The notes beneath the pieces were generated by a model. It ran no database searches and had not been told where the DNA came from. It saw nothing but the letters and a program-made list of their open reading frames with translations. Below are positions 2,249 to 36,421 of a stretch of DNA of 64,000 nucleotides, piece by piece. The stretch is from Streptomyces sp. NBC_00654 (GTDB lineage Bacteria > Actinomycetota > Actinomycetes > Streptomycetales > Streptomycetaceae): the NCBI RefSeq assembly GCF_026341775.1, contig NZ_JAPEOB010000001.1, positions 1,302,001 to 1,366,000 on the forward strand, given 5' to 3'. Both the position numbers and the translations under genes were made by a program. Position 1 is the first letter of the stretch. Each line of letters starts with the position of its first letter.

Positions 2249-3409
2249 TCAGGCGGGGCGCACGCTGCCGTAGATCGGCATGTAGTAGATCGACTCCTCG
2301 CGCACGTTCGCGCCCGGCTTCGGCGCGTGGATCATCATGCCGTCGCCCTTGTAGATGCCGACGTGACTGATGTCGTCGTAGAAGAAGACCAGGTCCCCGG
2401 GGCGCAGATCCGCCGTGGCCACCCGGGTGCCGACCTTCACCTGGTCCCAGGTCGTACGGGGGAGGTCGACCCCGGCCGCCTTCCACGCCGCCTGCGTCAG
2501 CCCGGAGCAGTCGTACGAGGCGGGGCCCGTCGCGCCCCAGACGTACGGCTTGCCGATCTGGCCGCGCGCGAACGCGAGGACCTTCTCCGCCTTGGCGGCG
2601 TAGCCGCTGTCCGGCCCCGATCCGGTGTCCGTCCCGCCACCGGTGCCGCTCCCGGAGTCCGGCTCCTTCGCGGCCTCCTCCTTGGCCTTCCGCTCGGCCT
2701 CCGCCTCGGCGGCGGCCTGCTGACGCGCCAGCTTCTCCGCCTTGATCCTGGCCTCGGCCTTCTTCTCGCGCTCCAGCTCCGCCAGCCGCGCCTTCTCCTG
2801 GGCGGTCAGCGTCGACAGCAGGGTGCGCGCCTCGGTCAGCTTGGTCTGCACGCTCTGCTTGCTGGTGCGCAGCGTGGCCTGCGACTCGGTGAGCGTCTCC
2901 AGGCTCTTCACCGCCTCGGTGCGCTTGACCGCCGCCGCGGACTGCTGCTCGCGGAAGTCGGCGACGGCCTTCTGCTGCTGGCTCGTCATCCGGTCCATCA
3001 GCTGGTCCTGGTCGAAGTACGCCTGCGGGTCGTCCGCCAGGAAGAACGTCGCGGTGGGCGCGATGCCGCCGGTGCGGTACTGCGCCGCCGCGTAGTTCCC
3101 GAGGGCGCGGCGGGCCTCGTTGACCTTGTCGGCGCGCTTGGCCACATCGTCGAGCAGGGCGTCGACCTCGGCGCGCTGGTTCGCGGAGGCCGCCTTCGCC
3201 TCGTTGTACTGCTGGGTCGCGGTGCCCGCCTGCCGGTAGAGGTCGTCGACCTTCTTCCGGACCTCCTCGATCCCGGGCCTGGGCTCCGCGGGCGCGGCCG
3301 TCGCGCTCTGCGTGGAGAGCAGCGTGACGGAGGCCAGCGCCGCCGTCGTCAGCCCGACGGCGGGAGTGGTGGTGCGCACCTTCGTACGCGGTTTGCGATG
3401 CGAGGCCAA
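2249..3409 (-). CDS. Secreted NlpC/P60 peptidoglycan hydrolase under c-di-AMP riboswitch control
   Basis: About 386 residues. The ATG at 3418 directly abuts the GGAAGGAG ribosome binding site. The in-frame TTG at 3409 has 9 nt spacing and gives MASHRKPRTKVRT, so TTG is preferred. Order: signal peptide (about 1-40), coiled coil with Ala/Glu/Lys-rich heptads (about 50-240), a Gly/Ser/Asp linker, then the NlpC/P60 domain with Cys301 (YDCSGLTQ) and His349 (SHVGIYKG). The enzyme should cleave wall stem peptides outside the cell. The riboswitch immediately upstream ties its expression to c-di-AMP, as known for wall hydrolases in actinomycetes. Confidence 0.92.
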   Translation of the reverse strand: MASHRKPRTKVRTTTPAVGLTTAALASVTLLSTQSATAAPAEPRPGIEEVRKKVDDLYRQAGTATQQYNEAKAASANQRAEVDALLDDVAKRADKVNEARRALGNYAAAQYRTGGIAPTATFFLADDPQAYFDQDQLMDRMTSQQQKAVADFREQQSAAAVKRTEAVKSLETLTESQATLRTSKQSVQTKLTEARTLLSTLTAQEKARLAELEREKKAEARIKAEKLARQQAAAEAEAERKAKEEAAKEPDSGSGTGGGTDTGSGPDSGYAAKAEKVLAFARGQIGKPYVWGATGPASYDCSGLTQAAWKAAGVDLPRTTWDQVKVGTRVATADLRPGDLVFFYDDISHVGIYKGDGMMIHAPKPGANVREESIYYMPIYGSVRPA

Positions 3410-3426
3410 GGCCGGCATCTCCTTCC

Positions 3427-3590
3427 GTGGACCGCCTGCCGGGTTGGCTGTCGGGTTCGGGCGGAACGGAAGGCTGCCCTACGGCCCCGTGGGGAAGGGC
3501 CGGTTCACCCCGGTACCGCTGGTGGGTCCCCGGTCCCGGGCTGCCGTCGGGCAGTACGGATTCGGCGGGGGCGTCCGCTCGGCGTGGTTC
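3427..3590 (-). promoter_or_regulatory. c-di-AMP riboswitch (ydaO-yuaA class)
   Basis: Read on the minus strand, the leader carries the conserved blocks of the class in order: CGCCGAATCC (3568-3559), GGGGACCCA (about 3531-3523), GGGGTGAA (about 3511-3504), GTAGGGCAG (about 3482-3474), CCGAACCCGACAGCCAACC and CAGGCG, ending in GGAAGGAG at 3426-3419. The blocks match the ydaO consensus as I remember it. Known members bind c-di-AMP and usually turn wall-hydrolase genes off at high ligand. Confidence 0.85.
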
Positions 3591-3622
3591 GCCGCAAGGG
3601 GGTACGGGGCGCCCGACCGAGC

Positions 3623-3628
3623 ACGCTA
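3623..3628 (-). promoter_or_regulatory. -10 box for the riboswitch transcript
   Basis: TAGCGT on the minus strand would start transcription near 3616, placing the whole riboswitch inside a leader of about 200 nt. The -35 element is not clear. Confidence 0.4.
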
Positions 3629-3819
3629 GCCACCCGTGGGGCCGCTGTGAAGGTTGATGTTCGATATGCCCGATACATTTTCGTGACCTCGGTGAATCGG
3701 GCCCGCGGGAACCGGGCGCCGCCGCCCTTCCCCTACGCGGTGTGGGTGCCCGGTCTCCGTACGTGCCCGTCCGGCCGCCCTCGTATCCGATGCGGCCACG
3801 GACTGTCGGTGCGGCGGCC

Positions 3820-3825
3820 TAGACT
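3820..3825 (+). promoter_or_regulatory. -10 box of leaderless pcrA transcript
   Basis: TAGACT ends 9 nt before the ATG at 3835, and there is no ribosome binding site. Confidence 0.5.
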
Positions 3826-3834
3826 CGTCAAGCG

Positions 3835-6273
3835 ATGAGCAGCCTCTTTGACGACAGCTTCCTGACCGGCCTCCAGCACTCGGAGGAAGGGCCCCCGCCG
3901 CCTCCCGAGGACCACGCACCCGAAGCGGTGCCGGAGGGTCTCTTCGAGGGCGTCTTCGACGCGCCCCCGCCGCCCCGCGACGGCTATTACCGGGACGGTG
4001 CCCCGCGGCCGGTCATCGACGCCGCCGCGCTGCTCGACGGGCTGAACACCGAGCAGCGCGCCGCCGTGGTGCACGCCGGTTCGCCGCTGCTCATCGTCGC
4101 CGGGGCCGGCTCGGGCAAGACCCGGGTGCTGACCCACCGGATCGCCCATCTGCTCGCGGAGCGCGGTGTGCACCCCGGCCAGATCCTCGCGATCACCTTC
4201 ACCAACAAGGCCGCGGGCGAGATGAAGGAGCGTGTCGAGCAGCTCGTCGGCCCGCGCGCCAACGCCATGTGGGTCATGACCTTCCACAGCGCGTGCGTAC
4301 GGATCCTGCGCCGCGAGTCGAAGAAGCTCGGCTTCACCTCGTCGTTCTCGATCTACGACGCCGCCGACTCCAAGCGGCTGATGGCCCTGGTCTGCCGCGA
4401 TCTGGACCTCGACCCCAAGCGCTACCCGCCGAAGTCGTTCACGGCCAAGGTCTCGAACCTGAAGAACGAGCTGATCGACGAGGAGACCTTCGCCGGCCAG
4501 GCCGCCGACGGCTTCGAGAAGACACTGGCCCAGGCATACGCGCTGTACCAGGCACGGCTGCGCGAGGCCAACGCCCTGGACTTCGACGACATCATCATGA
4601 CGACGGTCCACCTGCTCCAGGCGTTCCCCGATGTCGCCGAGCACTACCGCCGCCGCTTCCGCCACGTCCTGGTCGACGAGTACCAGGACACCAACCACGC
4701 GCAGTACACCCTCGTGCGCGAGCTGGTGGGCCCGTCCGGCGAGGCGGACGCACCCGCCGAGCTGTGTGTCGTCGGTGACGCGGACCAGTCGATCTACGCC
4801 TTCCGGGGCGCGACCATCCGCAACATCCTCCAGTTCGAGGAGGACTACCCCAACGCCACCACGATCCTGCTGGAGCAGAACTACCGCTCCACGCAGACGA
4901 TCCTCTCCGCCGCCAACGCGGTGATCGAGCGGAACGAGAGCCGCCGCCCCAAGAATCTCTGGACGAACGCCGGCAGTGGCGCCCGGATCACCGGCTATGT
5001 CGCCGACACCGAGCACGACGAGGCACAGTTCGTCGCCGACGAGATCGACCGGCTGACGGACGCGGGCGACGCGAAGGCCGGCGATGTCGCCGTCTTCTAC
5101 CGGACGAACGCCCAGTCACGTGTCTTCGAAGAGATCTTCATCCGCGTCGGGCTGCCCTACAAGGTCGTCGGCGGAGTGCGCTTCTACGAGCGCAAGGAGG
5201 TCCGGGACGTCCTGGCCTACCTCAGGGTCCTCGCCAACCCCGAGGACACCGTCCCCCTGCGCCGCATCCTGAACGTGCCCAAGCGGGGCATCGGCGACCG
5301 CGCCGAAGCGATGATCGACGCGCTGTCGCTGCGCGAGAAGATCTCCTTCCCGCAGGCGCTGCGCCGCGTCGACGAGGCGTACGGCATGGCGGCCCGCTCG
5401 GCCAACGCCGTGAAGCGCTTCAACACGCTCATGGAGGAGCTGCGCACGATCGTCGAGTCCGGTGCCGGACCGGCCGTCGTCCTGGAGGCGGTCCTGGAGC
5501 GGACCGGCTATCTCGCCGAGCTCCAGGCCTCCACGGACCCGCAGGACGAGACCCGTATCGAGAACCTCCAGGAGCTCGCCGCCGTCGCCCTCGAATTCGA
5601 GCAGGAGCGCGGCGACGAGGAGGGTGCGGGCACCCTCGCCGAGTTCCTGGAGAAGGTCGCGCTGGTCGCCGACTCGGACCAGATCCCGGACGAGGACGAG
5701 GACGGCTCCGGCGTCATCACCCTGATGACGCTGCACACGGCCAAGGGCCTCGAATTCCCCGTGGTGTTCCTGACCGGGATGGAGGACGGCGTCTTCCCGC
5801 ACATGCGGGCCCTCGGCCAGACCAAGGAGCTGGAGGAGGAGCGGCGGCTCGCCTACGTCGGCATCACCCGCGCCCGTGAGCGGCTCTATCTGACCCGGGC
5901 CGCGATGCGCAGCGCCTGGGGCCAGCCCTCGTACAACCCGCCGTCGCGCTTCCTGGAGGAGATCCCGGACCAGCACCTGGAGTGGAAGCGGAAGGGGCCG
6001 ATGGCGGCTCCGGCCGGTCCGACCTCGGGCATCACGTCCTCGCTGTCCTCGTCCCGCTCGCGCTCCGGCCCGTCCGGCTTCGCGACCCGTCGCAGCTCGG
6101 ACAAGCCGGTGGTCACGCTGGTGGTGGGGGACCGGGTCACGCACGACCAGTTCGGTCTGGGCACGGTGACGGCCGTAGAGGGCTTCGGGGACCAGGCGAA
6201 GGCCACGGTGGACTTCGGCGACGAGCGGCCCAAGAAGCTGCTCCTGCGGTACGCGCCGGTCGAGAAGCTGTAG
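3835..6273 (+). CDS. pcrA: ATP-dependent DNA helicase PcrA/UvrD1
   Basis: 812 residues, superfamily 1A 3'-5' helicase for repair and replication-fork maintenance in the cytoplasm. Visible motifs in order: Walker A AGAGSGKT with Lys95, TFTNKAAGEM, the DEYQDTN Walker B box, DADQSIYAFRGA, QNYRS, TLHTAKGLEFPVVFLTG, and VGITRARERLYLT. An acidic/proline-rich extension of about 60 residues precedes the helicase core, as usual in actinomycetes. The last about 50 residues (VVGDRVTHDQFGLGTV) form the Tudor-like C-terminal domain that binds RNA polymerase in PcrA proteins. ATG 3835 is chosen from the leaderless promoter. Confidence 0.96.
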   Translation: MSSLFDDSFLTGLQHSEEGPPPPPEDHAPEAVPEGLFEGVFDAPPPPRDGYYRDGAPRPVIDAAALLDGLNTEQRAAVVHAGSPLLIVAGAGSGKTRVLTHRIAHLLAERGVHPGQILAITFTNKAAGEMKERVEQLVGPRANAMWVMTFHSACVRILRRESKKLGFTSSFSIYDAADSKRLMALVCRDLDLDPKRYPPKSFTAKVSNLKNELIDEETFAGQAADGFEKTLAQAYALYQARLREANALDFDDIIMTTVHLLQAFPDVAEHYRRRFRHVLVDEYQDTNHAQYTLVRELVGPSGEADAPAELCVVGDADQSIYAFRGATIRNILQFEEDYPNATTILLEQNYRSTQTILSAANAVIERNESRRPKNLWTNAGSGARITGYVADTEHDEAQFVADEIDRLTDAGDAKAGDVAVFYRTNAQSRVFEEIFIRVGLPYKVVGGVRFYERKEVRDVLAYLRVLANPEDTVPLRRILNVPKRGIGDRAEAMIDALSLREKISFPQALRRVDEAYGMAARSANAVKRFNTLMEELRTIVESGAGPAVVLEAVLERTGYLAELQASTDPQDETRIENLQELAAVALEFEQERGDEEGAGTLAEFLEKVALVADSDQIPDEDEDGSGVITLMTLHTAKGLEFPVVFLTGMEDGVFPHMRALGQTKELEEERRLAYVGITRARERLYLTRAAMRSAWGQPSYNPPSRFLEEIPDQHLEWKRKGPMAAPAGPTSGITSSLSSSRSRSGPSGFATRRSSDKPVVTLVVGDRVTHDQFGLGTVTAVEGFGDQAKATVDFGDERPKKLLLRYAPVEKL

Positions 6274-31797: not shown

Positions 31798-32898
<1,101 letters not shown>

Positions 32899-33143: not shown

Positions 33144-35045
33144 GTGACCGGGAGTACCGTGCCGCAACCGTCGCGGAGCCAGGACGACCTGCTGGGGAAA
33201 CCGCCCGTGCACCCGGCCACGAGCGAGGCCTGCAGACTGCTCTGCGCCGGGGTCTATCTGCACGACGGCTACCGCGACGCCGTGATCGACCAGCTGTATG
33301 TGCAGGAGGAGCGGATCGCCGCCCCGTCGACGGGTTTCGACGCCGCCCGGGTGCTGGCGCACGCCCTGCGGGCACGCCGCTCCGAACTCCGGTGGGCCGC
33401 GGGCATCCTGGCCACCTGGCTGCTGGGCGTCGTGCTCACCCGCGGTGCCGTCGCGGTCCTCGTGATGCCGTGCGTCCTGCTCGCCCTCGCGCCCTTGATC
33501 AGGGGGTCGGCGCGCAACCCACCGGTCTACCGCCGGATCCCGGCGTTCCTGATGCGCTGGTACGGGCGGGTCCTCCTGTTCCTCGCGGTGCTCTGGACCG
33601 TCGGCAGCGCCTTCGCCGGTCTCTTCGACGACGACGACGATTCCGGGAGCTACGACTCCTCGTACGGCTCCTCGTACGACTCCTCCGACGGGCTGTCCGA
33701 CGGCTTGTCCGACGCGATCCCGGACGGGGCCGGTCTCGGTCTCGCCGTGCTGAACGAAGGCTTCTCCTCCGGCGGGTCCGGCTCGGGCGCGGCCTGGGGA
33801 GCGATTGCCTTCTTCGCCCTGATCGCCACCCTGGTGGGGCTCCGGCGCGGCCAGTTCGCCCGGGTCATGGCCGGTGAGCTGGCCAGGAAGAACTTCCCCG
33901 ACCAGACCGCCGACCCGGCCGAACGGACCGTGGGCGGCCGCTTCCGGCGGCTCCAGCAGCGGATCAGGCTGGAGCAGCACGCCCCGCTGATCATGTACAG
34001 CGCCGGCGATCCGTTCTGCGGTGCCGGGGTCCCGTACCACCCGTGGAACCTGGCCGTCGAGCTCCGGCCGAGCGAGGACGGCCCGACCGAACCGATCGAC
34101 AACGCGCGGATCCTCCGCCGGATCGTGCCACTGCTCCAGGAGCTGCGGGTGCCGTCTCCGCACGGCTCCCCGGAGGCTGCCGCCGCCGTACGGGACCGGC
34201 TGCGCGAGCTGCAGATCGACGAGTGCGTGTTCCTGCCGGTGCTGGGCATGCGGCGGCGCGAGGACGCCCCGTACGGTCCCGAGGGCTTCGAGACCCACCG
34301 GCTGGGCGCCGTCGAGGAGGGCGGGGAGAGCCGCAGGCACTTCCTGCGCATCCGTGTCGGCGGATGGAGCGAGGAGGTCGTCGTCACCGTCTTCGTCCGG
34401 GTCCACACCCAGGGCGGGATGCTGATGCTGGAGCTCGCGCCGCATGTCCTGATGCCGGTGCACCCGTTGTTCCAGGAGGCCGACCGGATCGCCCACCGGC
34501 ACCGCAACAACAACTGGTTCGGGAAGACCGCCTGGGCGGTGGCCCGCACTCCGGGCTCGCTGGTGCGCTCGGTCGTCACCCTGGGCCGCGGCGCGGTCAG
34601 CGGCTGGACGGTCCTCACCGCCGGGAACAGCGGTGCGCTGACGGACGGGCCTGCGATGTCCATCCGGCAGCTGGGCTCGGACGACGAGGCCTCGCTCTTC
34701 CAGGACATGGACATCAACCGGTATCTGAAGAGCATCCAGGACCGGGTGACCGGTGGTGTGCGGCTCGCCCTGCGCGAAGCGGGCTGGCAGACCGACGAGT
34801 TCGAGCAGAAGATCGTGAACATCGGCGCGGGCGGGGTCTTCATCGAGTCCGCGAAGGACAGCGCGATCGGCATCGGGGACCACAACAACGTCTCGTACGG
34901 AAACGCCGGCCACCGGTCCACCGCGGACCCGAAGCGGGCCCCGGGGGCGAAACAGGGCCCCGGCGCGCAGAAGCCCCCGCCGAAGCCGTCCGGACCCGGC
35001 ACCTCGCCGCGGCCGGACCAGCACCCGAACACCGGAGGTAAGTGA
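33144..35045 (+). CDS. Membrane protein with C-terminal RHIM-like IGIGDHNNV motif
   Basis: 633 residues, family not recognised. A soluble start (1-80) precedes two close membrane segments (about 84-119), another at 141-160, an acidic Ser/Asp/Tyr loop (161-195) and a last segment at 216-234. A cytoplasmic region of about 320 residues follows. Near the C-terminus, residues 575-583 read IGIGDHNNV, matching the hydrophobic-x-hydrophobic-G-x-x-N-x-hydrophobic core of RHIM-type amyloid motifs; a Pro/Lys-rich tail follows. GTG 33144 has AGGGGGA upstream. First gene of a tight three-gene operon; the next protein carries the same motif at its N-terminus. Confidence 0.8.
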   Translation: MTGSTVPQPSRSQDDLLGKPPVHPATSEACRLLCAGVYLHDGYRDAVIDQLYVQEERIAAPSTGFDAARVLAHALRARRSELRWAAGILATWLLGVVLTRGAVAVLVMPCVLLALAPLIRGSARNPPVYRRIPAFLMRWYGRVLLFLAVLWTVGSAFAGLFDDDDDSGSYDSSYGSSYDSSDGLSDGLSDAIPDGAGLGLAVLNEGFSSGGSGSGAAWGAIAFFALIATLVGLRRGQFARVMAGELARKNFPDQTADPAERTVGGRFRRLQQRIRLEQHAPLIMYSAGDPFCGAGVPYHPWNLAVELRPSEDGPTEPIDNARILRRIVPLLQELRVPSPHGSPEAAAAVRDRLRELQIDECVFLPVLGMRRREDAPYGPEGFETHRLGAVEEGGESRRHFLRIRVGGWSEEVVVTVFVRVHTQGGMLMLELAPHVLMPVHPLFQEADRIAHRHRNNNWFGKTAWAVARTPGSLVRSVVTLGRGAVSGWTVLTAGNSGALTDGPAMSIRQLGSDDEASLFQDMDINRYLKSIQDRVTGGVRLALREAGWQTDEFEQKIVNIGAGGVFIESAKDSAIGIGDHNNVSYGNAGHRSTADPKRAPGAKQGPGAQKPPPKPSGPGTSPRPDQHPNTGGK

Positions 35046-35047
35046 CC

Positions 35048-35428
35048 ATGGAGACGCCCGACGGACAGCAGCCGGTACAGCGGACCGTCCACGTGGGATC
35101 GGTGACCGGCAGCGCCTTCGCCATCGGTGACCACAACACCGTCACACAGCACCAGCACGCCGCTCCCGCCGACGGGACCCAGGCCGAACTGCTCCGCGCC
35201 GTGCGGGAGCTCCGCGCCGACCTCGAACGGTTCGTCGCCTCGGACGCCACGGAGATCCTCGACGCCGAACTGGTCTCGGTGACGGAGGAGATCGAGGGCG
35301 CCGGCGCGGCGACTCCCGGAAGGCTGGCCCGGCTCCGGGACGCACTGACGGCGACCGGTGCCCTCACCGGGACGCTGGCCTCCGGCATCGCCGTGGGGCA
35401 GGCGCTCGCCGCGCTGCTGGGGAGCTGA
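35048..35428 (+). CDS. Small helical protein with N-terminal RHIM-like FAIGDHNTV motif (DUF5955-like)
   Basis: 126 residues. Residues 14-37 carry VHVGSVTGS and then FAIGDHNTV (24-32), nearly the same motif as in the protein upstream. The rest (about 42-126) is a compact helical domain with LRAVRELRADLERF, a short turn and an Ala/Gly/Leu-rich final helix. It resembles DUF5955 proteins from memory. ATG 35048 has GGAGGT 8 nt upstream, better placed than GTG 35042; the gene starts 2 nt after the previous stop. An adaptor or signal-receiving role is inference. Confidence 0.78.
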   Translation: METPDGQQPVQRTVHVGSVTGSAFAIGDHNTVTQHQHAAPADGTQAELLRAVRELRADLERFVASDATEILDAELVSVTEEIEGAGAATPGRLARLRDALTATGALTGTLASGIAVGQALAALLGS

Positions 35429-35431
35429 GCG

Positions 35432-36421
35432 GTGAACGGGGGCGGCGGAGCACGCTGGAACGACGAGACACAGAGCTGGGAGACCGAGGAGCGGCGCGGC
35501 CACACCCCGCCGCCCCCGCCGCTGCCCTCGGTACCGCCGGTGGTTCCGGTGGCCCCCGTGACGCAGGAGCCACCGGGGCCGCAGGGGCCTTGGGGTCCGG
35601 CCGGTCCTCCGGGCCCGGCAGGGCCGCCCGCGCCGCCGGGGACGTACAACAACATCACCGGGACCTTCGAGACCACCGGGACCGGCGGGGCGGGCGGCGG
35701 CAGGTCCTTCCGGGAGCGGGTCACCCCACTGACCGCCGGGGTCGCGGTGGGCGTGCTCGCGGTGGGTGCGGCGGCGCTGTGGTTCACGCTCGGCGGCGAC
35801 AACGACGGCGGTCACGAAGGTGCGCGGGGGGCGAGCGCCACCTCCACCGAGCTGGAGAACTCGGCCGACGGGACGACCGGCGGTGAGGACGCCGGGGGGA
35901 CCGACGGGGCCCTTCCCGATGCCTCCGCGTCGGAAACCGCCCAGGAATCCGCGTCGCCGTCCGGTGCGCCGCCTCCCGAATACGCCGATACGGACGACCG
36001 TGAAGGCTTCCGGATCGCTGTCCCCCGGGAGTGGGACGTCCGCACCGAGGACAAGGGCGCGGTGTTCTACAGGTCGGCCGACGGCGTGGAACTGATGCAG
36101 ATCTTCCGGATCGCCGAGTCCATCACCGCCGTGGACGCCGTCGGACGCGCGTCCGAGGAACTCAGCTCCAACCCGGGCTTCGAGGAGATCAGCCGCGGCG
36201 CCGTGGAGAACCCCGGAGGCGGGGAGGCGGCCGAGCTGGTCTACGCGTACGACAGCGAGGAGACCGGCGGCCGGCGCCAGGTCGTCGAGCGCGTCTTCAC
36301 GGCCTCGGACGGTCGGCTGTACGCGGTGCTGGTCGGCGCCGCCGACAGCGAGTGGCCGCGGCAGCAGGAGATCCTGGACGTGGCCGTGACGCACTTCGAC
36401 CCGTACGGCAGTCCGTTCTGA
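35432..36421 (+). CDS. Single-pass membrane protein with collagen-like segment and outer sensor-like domain
   Basis: 329 residues. The cytoplasmic part has a WNDETQSWETEE start, then Pro-rich and collagen-like G-P-x repeats (about 50-68) followed by YNNITGTFET. One membrane segment lies at about 96-116 (AGVAVGVLAVGAAALWF). An acidic Ser/Thr-rich stalk and a C-terminal domain of about 140 residues (REGFRIAVPREWDVR...) should lie outside the cell. The domain resembles PsbP/LpqN-type outer domains seen on some Streptomyces kinases and lipoproteins. GTG 35432 has GGGGAG 7 nt upstream, 3 nt after the previous stop. Confidence 0.75.
   Translation: MNGGGGARWNDETQSWETEERRGHTPPPPPLPSVPPVVPVAPVTQEPPGPQGPWGPAGPPGPAGPPAPPGTYNNITGTFETTGTGGAGGGRSFRERVTPLTAGVAVGVLAVGAAALWFTLGGDNDGGHEGARGASATSTELENSADGTTGGEDAGGTDGALPDASASETAQESASPSGAPPPEYADTDDREGFRIAVPREWDVRTEDKGAVFYRSADGVELMQIFRIAESITAVDAVGRASEELSSNPGFEEISRGAVENPGGGEAAELVYAYDSEETGGRRQVVERVFTASDGRLYAVLVGAADSEWPRQQEILDVAVTHFDPYGSPF

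Follow-up and report, generated by a model that had tools for sequence, protein, structure and literature searches.

Matched, locus-specific motifs shared by a membrane protein and its operon partner in Streptomyces suggest an amyloid-type signalling operon

The window analysed here is a stretch of 64,000 nucleotides from Streptomyces sp. NBC_00654 (contig C1, positions 1302001-1366000), and its subject is a group of three adjoining genes, called genes 1, 2 and 3 in their order (Table 1); loci used for comparison carry L numbers and genomes G numbers. The end of the gene 1 protein and the start of the gene 2 protein carry nearly the same 20-residue segment. In related operons this segment drifts to unrelated sequences and yet is kept alike in both proteins of a locus. 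Our results suggest that this tail and this head may recognise each other by stacking like with like, in the manner of amyloid immune signalling.

Only 2 bases separate genes 1 and 2 and 3 bases genes 2 and 3, and the three therefore look like an operon, as a preliminary description of this DNA had stated. The several membrane segments that it gave to the first protein and the single pass that it gave to the third are supported by hydropathy, and the second is, as described, a small helical protein (126 amino acids, four predicted helices). Between the third and fourth membrane segments of gene 1 (residues 163-217) there are no lysines or arginines and 11 aspartates or glutamates, so that this stretch is predicted to lie outside and the C-terminal part of about 400 residues in the cytosol. 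Gene 1 had no match in Pfam, NCBIfam or PADLOC, and its profile found no relative among PDB sequences at E values up to 1. For gene 2, nothing was above cut-off in the same three collections, three weak Pfam rows (E 0.017 to 0.21) being dropped as below it. The predicted fold of gene 2 has its four helices between residues 40 and 124, the last within a hydrophobic stretch (residues 105-126, hydropathy 1.57); structural matches were generic four-helix bundles (copper storage proteins, pectin methylesterase inhibitor, bacteriocin immunity proteins) and were not used. Residues 4-36 of the predicted monomer have a predicted local distance difference test (pLDDT) score below 50 and so do not form an ordered beta-hairpin in the model. 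A motif within a region that is disordered in the monomer is a general trait of functional amyloid signalling, and the predicted gene 2 monomer shows it. The gene 3 protein has an N-terminal W-N-x-E-T-Q-x-W-E box, a proline-rich linker, one membrane segment (residues 96-123 by hydropathy) and a weak PsbP-like C-terminal domain predicted outside (Pfam PsbP, E 3.4e-5, 24.4 bits against a cut-off of 23.5); no copy of the motif is visible in it.

Table 1. Features of the operon and its upstream neighbour, in positions of the window
Feature	Position	Strand	Description and basis
Gene 1	33144..35045	+	GTG start 33144, TGA stop 35043-35045, 633 amino acids, polytopic membrane protein; proposed sensor/scaffold
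Gene 1, large cytosolic domain (predicted) and C-terminal pairing motif	within 33144..35045	+	hydropathy, homologue alignment
Gene 1, two membrane segments, residues 84-124	33393..33515	+	hydropathy, maximum 2.54
Gene 1, third membrane segment, residues 139-163	33558..33632	+	hydropathy 2.22
Gene 1, fourth membrane segment, residues 212-236	33777..33851	+	hydropathy
Gene 1, pairing motif, residues 565-584 (VFIESAKDSAIGIGDHNNVS)	34836..34895	+	homologues, own-pair scores, BLASTP
Gene 2	35048..35428	+	ATG start, 126 amino acids, GGAGG just upstream; proposed effector or adaptor
Gene 2, pairing motif, residues 14-34 (VHVGSVTGSAFAIGDHNTVTQ), predicted disordered head	35087..35149	+	BLASTP, own-pair scores, pLDDT
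Gene 2, four-helix bundle, residues 40-124	35165..35419	+	structure prediction
Gene 3	35432..36421	+	GTG start, 329 amino acids, single-pass protein; accessory
Gene 3, conserved W-box WNDETQSWE	35456..35482	+	homologue comparison
Presumed malate dehydrogenase gene (mdh), synteny anchor 5' of the operon in 71/80 loci	31909..32898	+	locus survey; putative family assignment

The motif reads IGIGDHNNV at residues 575-583 of gene 1 and FAIGDHNTV at residues 24-32 of gene 2, where the preliminary description had placed it. BLASTP aligns gene 1 residues 565-599 with gene 2 residues 14-46 (14/35 identities, E 0.001); no credible similarity was found between the rest of the two proteins (other alignments had E values of 18 or worse), which agrees with their description as otherwise unrelated. 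The local score of the two window motifs, 58, was reached by none of 5000 shuffles, and a profile of gene 2 homologues also matched the gene 1 tail in a search of the genome (E 6.2e-4). A degenerate DNA pattern for the motif core had six matches in the 9.6-Mb genome and none for a reversed control; only two of the six read GDHN, and these are genes 1 and 2. Of the other matches (L007, L008, L009 and L010), the one read, L008, has the core inside an open reading frame that looks oxygenase-like by eye, and was dropped. The motif is conserved in homologues: a GxxN-type core was found by regular expression in 115 of the 120 best of 129 gene 2 relatives and in 96 of the 120 best of 953 gene 1 relatives. 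Of the five gene 2 relatives missed, four have a variant motif and the fifth, a short protein, lacks the head, and the nine inspected in the alignment among the 24 gene 1 relatives missed all have variant motifs.

The match between tail and head was followed through the best 80 of 189 confirmed relatives from named species genomes, nearly all titled Streptomyces, to which the window was added to give 81 loci for pair scoring. Two of the 80 (L041 and L042), on two contigs of one S. apocyni assembly, have the same positions and identities throughout; they are probably an assembly duplicate and should count as one. Gene 2 was found by profile at the end of gene 1 in all 80 loci, and the gene which we take to be mdh lies upstream in 71, some loci being short contigs. 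The C-terminal domain of gene 3 is present in 71 of the 80, and in L046 and L053 it lies upstream of gene 1 only. A match to this PsbP-like domain also occurs 5' of gene 1 in L046, L047, L053, L059, L062, L063, L073 and L086, and in loci such as L046, L047 and L063 it sits between mdh and gene 1.

Within these loci the motif switches in both proteins together, to GRADNSSFAFGDHARAET in both proteins of L083, to GNISGSNNNVAAG and GDISGSNNNVAAG in L063, to NSAVNFGANGTANN and NSAVNFGAHGTANN in L074 and to SAFSIGGSN in L078. A second regular expression, for a GxxN/T-type core, matched 41 of the 81 tails and 42 of the 81 heads, so that about half of the operons lack such a core. The check proposed in the preliminary description, whether the pair co-varies across homologous operons, gave a mean score of 75.4 for a locus's own tail and head against 47.1 for mixed pairs (n=81). 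The own partner was best or tied in just 18 of 81 loci (median rank 4), because relatives share motifs. When partners were swapped within 40 non-overlapping nearest pairs of less than 90% identity, the score was lower in 31, higher in 4 and equal in 5 (sign test on 31 against 4, 3.5e-6), and without the one pair that uses the duplicate locus L041 the counts were 30, 4 and 5. The signal fades between the closest relatives, as is to be expected of motifs so similar: at 80-90% identity 29 of 47 pairs were positive and 10 negative, and above 90% the counts were 5 and 0 of 21 pairs. Permutation of partners within clades reached the observed mean in 0 of 2000 trials at each of four clade cut-offs.

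Copies of a motif may also stay alike through concerted evolution, by gene conversion or recent duplication, with no pairing function. Some pairs are indeed near-identical in protein (e.g., L083 and, among the distant loci described below, L200), and in L040 as many as 16 of 18 shared residues have the same codon, an exception to the general pattern. That pattern is one of frequent codon differences at identical residues (10 of 21 in L092), with a codon identity of 0.70 within loci against 0.66 between loci; codon divergence within loci is thus close to that between them. Selection on the protein, rather than recent copying, therefore seems to keep the copies alike. Recent gene conversion has left no general trace, and only the motif is common, at opposite ends of otherwise unlike proteins. 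We regard concerted evolution as very improbable, and gene conversion as the cause of the match was set aside on codon use.

The matching is also insulated from operon to operon within one genome. The gene 2 profile matched 132 of 293 genomes of the order, both motifs could be extracted from 53 of 71 loci, and in many genomes the family has a second operon, whose motif belongs to a different class (MSGGAVAAGERASAK-like, MSGGSIATGSHG-like or MSGGTAQTGDRAQ-like). Nine two-copy genomes were chosen for an exchange test, which covered the seven with extractable motifs (further genomes with two gene 2 matches, such as G274, G284, G170 and G030, lie outside it), and the own pairing won in 7/7, with margins of 71 to 99 score units. 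In 15 of the 72 loci examined, gene 2 itself has a second copy of the motif that scores higher than any of 200 shuffles; the margin over shuffles is narrow, 1 to 4 units, in L146, L185 and L188. This recalls the motif repeats described for other amyloid pairs (PMC9815663).

The genome of the window has a second copy of the operon (G000:C1:4404035-4405618; L011, 3509-6202), with the tail SNSAVAVGEKSSAKQ. Its gene 1 paralogue is 42% identical over residues 216-583 and a gene 3-like single-pass protein is present; the second gene in between looks broken, with short frames only. A further gene 1 paralogue in this genome (G000:C2:1425791-1426888; L012, gene 2587-4278) has no motif tail and ends ...KADVYDA. 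It is of the same kind as the tail-less paralogues of 13 Streptomyces loci (12 distinct genes), in which no convincing matching next gene was found. Another Streptomyces locus (L203) has a gene 1 relative without gene 2 and with a degenerate tail motif. Gene 2-like helical domains for which no adjoining gene 1 relative was found occur in L133, L134, L139 and L140, with no obvious motif in the matched part.

The pairing extends beyond the genus. Of 394 genomes sampled from the class, 45 have a gene 1 relative, and 23 of these 45 belong to other genera. A profile of distant members, used at a stricter cut-off, found relatives in 15 of 396 genomes from the phylum, of which two lie outside the class. 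A distant set was made of one stretch each from 18 of the 23 genomes (17 of one family, one of another) and two from one Streptomyces genome. Nineteen of these 20 stretches have a gene 1 relative, and in 18 of them (all except L203) the start of the next gene matches the tail of the same locus. The motifs vary by locus (VIAGNIGGEGNSGSVQ and VVAGNIGGSGNNGQIN in L191, TGGTFNGPVAAG and TGGVFNGPMAAG in L197, FTNTTFGDQAQVQNHGS in both proteins of L200). The mean score was 76.1 for own pairs against 40.1 for others, and own pairs beat all 500 shuffles in 17 of the 18 loci (3/500 were as good in L199); in 8 of the 18, the head of another locus outscores the own head. Further matched pairs were found in L208-L213, L216, L217 and L224 (Streptomyces) and in L215 (another class), and no partner gene was found in L214 and L221 (another class).

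In some loci of this distant set the second gene is exchanged for another protein and the match survives. Among the eight of 18 second genes on which Pfam was run, that of L195, L200, L201 and L202 is a PNP_UDP_1 protein (E 2.8e-15 to 1.4e-24), which strengthens a receptor-effector logic for the operon because the match is kept through the swap. The second genes of L192 and L194 are DUF5955 (PF19380) above cut-off; that of L196 scores 22.1 for this family, below the cut-off of 27.1, and in L191 and L196 nothing was above the Pfam cut-off. A relation of these small DUF5955 genes to window gene 2 is suggested by position and size only; the latter had no DUF5955 match in Pfam, and no paper with the name DUF5955 was found in the literature searched.

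The gene 2 profile also led to loci whose first gene differs from gene 1 (L123 and L128), and the small gene of L123 led in turn to L204, a Streptomyces locus. The first gene of L204 encodes an NTPase with weak NACHT/STAND matches below cut-off; none of 5000 shuffles was as good as the match between its head ISGQVVVGYRNIVVH and the adjoining partner VTGQVVVGQGNVVIRT. The NTPase of L123 may be a STAND protein (nSTAND1, E 0.011, below cut-off), and the match of its head to its own partner is weaker (131/5000 shuffles as good). In L128 a beta-helix protein (Pfam Beta_helix, E 9.4e-28) is paired with a gene 2-like protein (0/5000 shuffles). In these three loci other first genes are paired with gene 2-like proteins through motifs of the same kind.

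The preliminary description had assigned the motif to the RHIM-like amyloid motifs. The core of RHIM and BASS3 motifs is hydrophobic-Q-hydrophobic-G-x-x-N-x-hydrophobic, with a conserved Q. The window cores fit this consensus at every position except the Q, which is replaced by A or G. One published BASS3 peptide, VDLRDAKGVQVGDGNVQINRF, which gave amyloid signals according to Table 2 of PMC8086366, was compared with our motifs. The window motifs do not resemble it significantly (1640 and 1238 of 5000 shuffles were as good, with this one peptide tested), and the attempt at a direct link failed; for motif profiles, 47 to 56 of 2000 shuffles were as good, a weak hint at most. The window operon might still be a true RHIM/BASS3 member in which the NLR was swapped for a membrane protein, as the fit of the remaining core would allow. 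Such a reading draws further on the NLR-like loci L123 and L204, which use similar motifs: the L123 head and the L204 partner head resemble the BASS3 peptide (6 and 26 of 5000 shuffles as good). With the Q missing, the window motifs unlike the peptide and non-RHIM motifs filling the same slot in relatives, we hold this membership to be somewhat unlikely, and these comparisons do not establish it. Of the amyloid-type signalling unit that had been proposed, the motif pair, its co-variation and the receptor-effector logic are supported, and the RHIM membership, as it was stated, is not.

A different kind of explanation is that the motif is a docking peptide, both copies being read by the same groove in the cytosolic domain of gene 1 or in a third protein. 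In a variant, the tail would be a built-in pseudo-ligand that gene 2 displaces, and the match would reflect the common reader. A common reader would likewise keep the copies alike, and gene 1 does have a large conserved cytosolic domain. However, when the head is taken into account the tail hardly follows the body of gene 1: tail and head distances had a partial correlation of 0.62 with both protein bodies removed (0/999 permutations as high), whereas the value for the tail with the gene 1 body, given the head and the gene 2 body, was 0.14. This difference speaks for matching between the partners rather than for a reader domain in gene 1. As for a third protein, L185-L190 and L203 have the W-box gene 3, and no plausible W-box gene 3 was seen in L191-L202, where the pairing is kept; gene 3 therefore seems to be no part of the pairing and was set aside as the motif reader. 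Each operon would, moreover, require its own reader. We consider docking distinctly unlikely.

Like-with-like contact is, in our view, the best explanation for a segment that is kept the same in both proteins of a locus while drifting to unrelated sequences between loci. In-register stacking requires identical partners, whereas docking requires complementarity, and our proposal is accordingly that tails of clustered gene 1 proteins seed a beta stack, which activates gene 2. Gene 1 would be a sensor embedded in the membrane, with a short beta-prone motif at the end of its cytosolic tail, and gene 2 a dedicated effector or adaptor with the same motif in a disordered head. A signal might be sensed by gene 1, perhaps together with the outer PsbP-like domain of gene 3, upon which gene 1 would cluster and its tails stack into beta structure. 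This stack would recruit and template the heads of gene 2, like with like and in register, and recruitment would concentrate gene 2 and switch on its effector domain. On balance, and with ample room for doubt, we think it probable that homotypic templating, probably of an amyloid-like kind, brings an exchangeable effector to a membrane sensor here. The roles of gene 1 as sensor and of gene 2 as effector are inferred. The output may be membrane damage, growth arrest or cell death, and in the PNP_UDP versions presumably the destruction of nucleotides. The operon keeps its position near mdh, which speaks for a role in physiology or development no less than for one in phage defence.

A direct contact of tail and head, if it occurs, could take another form. 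A finite, soluble beta-solenoid or beta-arch heterocomplex might hold gene 2 at the membrane, and no self-propagating fibre would form. To the eye, the segment resembles a single strand or a pair of strands with a turn of the G-x-x-N type, and the tail motif of L128 sits on the beta-helix protein described above, both of which suit such a structure. Finite heterodimers, on the other hand, usually need complementary rather than identical surfaces, and the repeated motif copies in gene 2 (15/72 loci) suit stacking. We judge a finite complex unlikely, and the proposed assembly is probably amyloid-like rather than a solenoid.

Amyloid signalling is known mainly from NLR pairs and mammalian RHIM kinases. 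A tentative reading of our results, to which we give slightly less than an even chance, is that actinobacteria have previously undescribed amyloid-type signalling operons built on membrane receptors, in which self-similarity itself would be the rule of recognition. The segment used might then be almost any beta-prone stretch of 20 residues, if tail and head share it, so that operon-specific barcodes would be insulated from each other and effectors (helical bundle, DUF5955, PNP_UDP enzyme) swapped; this part, too, is about as open to doubt as to belief, with doubt a little ahead. Such a generalisation, if true, goes beyond a variant of known amyloid pairs. Scores of matched, divergent motif pairs on membrane-bound receptors would represent a natural sequence code for the specificity of templating, making it testable how much identity two amyloid motifs need to cross-seed and how cells keep several switches apart, and Streptomyces is a safe and genetically tractable host for that question. 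No description of the operon family of the window was found in the literature on bacterial amyloid motifs, DUF5955 and SCO4827-SCO4829, as far as the available text of these sources extends. The operon was not located in S. coelicolor from the literature on SCO4827-SCO4829, since sco4829 is a putative oxidoreductase in the accessible part of it.

Several known systems resemble the operon. RIPK1 and RIPK3 pair heterotypically through RHIMs with near-identical hydrophobic-Q-hydrophobic-G-x-x-N-type cores, and the window operon differs from them in having no Q, no kinase and no significant match to the tested BASS3 peptide. HET-S/NWD2-type pairs of fungi offer another parallel; unlike these and the fungal PNP_UDP pairs, the window family is bacterial, with a membrane receptor, no NACHT domain and the motif at the effector N-terminus. 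Fungal amyloid pairs include PNP_UDP effectors and both single and repeated motif copies, and in the fungal PUASM systems a PNP_UDP enzyme is an effector tied to its receptor by a common motif, as in our distant loci (PMC9815663). A further likeness is to the BASS operons, of which the NLR pairs are found in actinobacteria, cyanobacteria and archaea and of which the RHIM-like BASS3 comes nearest. Published BASS operons consist of an NLR with an N-terminal motif and a Bell protein with a C-terminal motif (PMC7889193), and they share with the window operon the adjacent genes with a common short variable motif, the terminal tail and the many motif classes (PMC7889193, PMC8086366, PMC9815663). Their effector is a small alpha-helical protein with a hydrophobic helix; gene 2 is predicted to have four helices, the last of them hydrophobic, and its fold matches are generic. 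The window operon, in contrast, has a polytopic membrane protein as the partner and no NLR, its orientation is mirrored, with the motif at the C-terminus of gene 1 and the N-terminus of gene 2, and the motif core is not fixed across its family. It would work like the BASS and fungal pairs but departs from two defining BASS features, the NLR and the orientation, and from the strict RHIM core.

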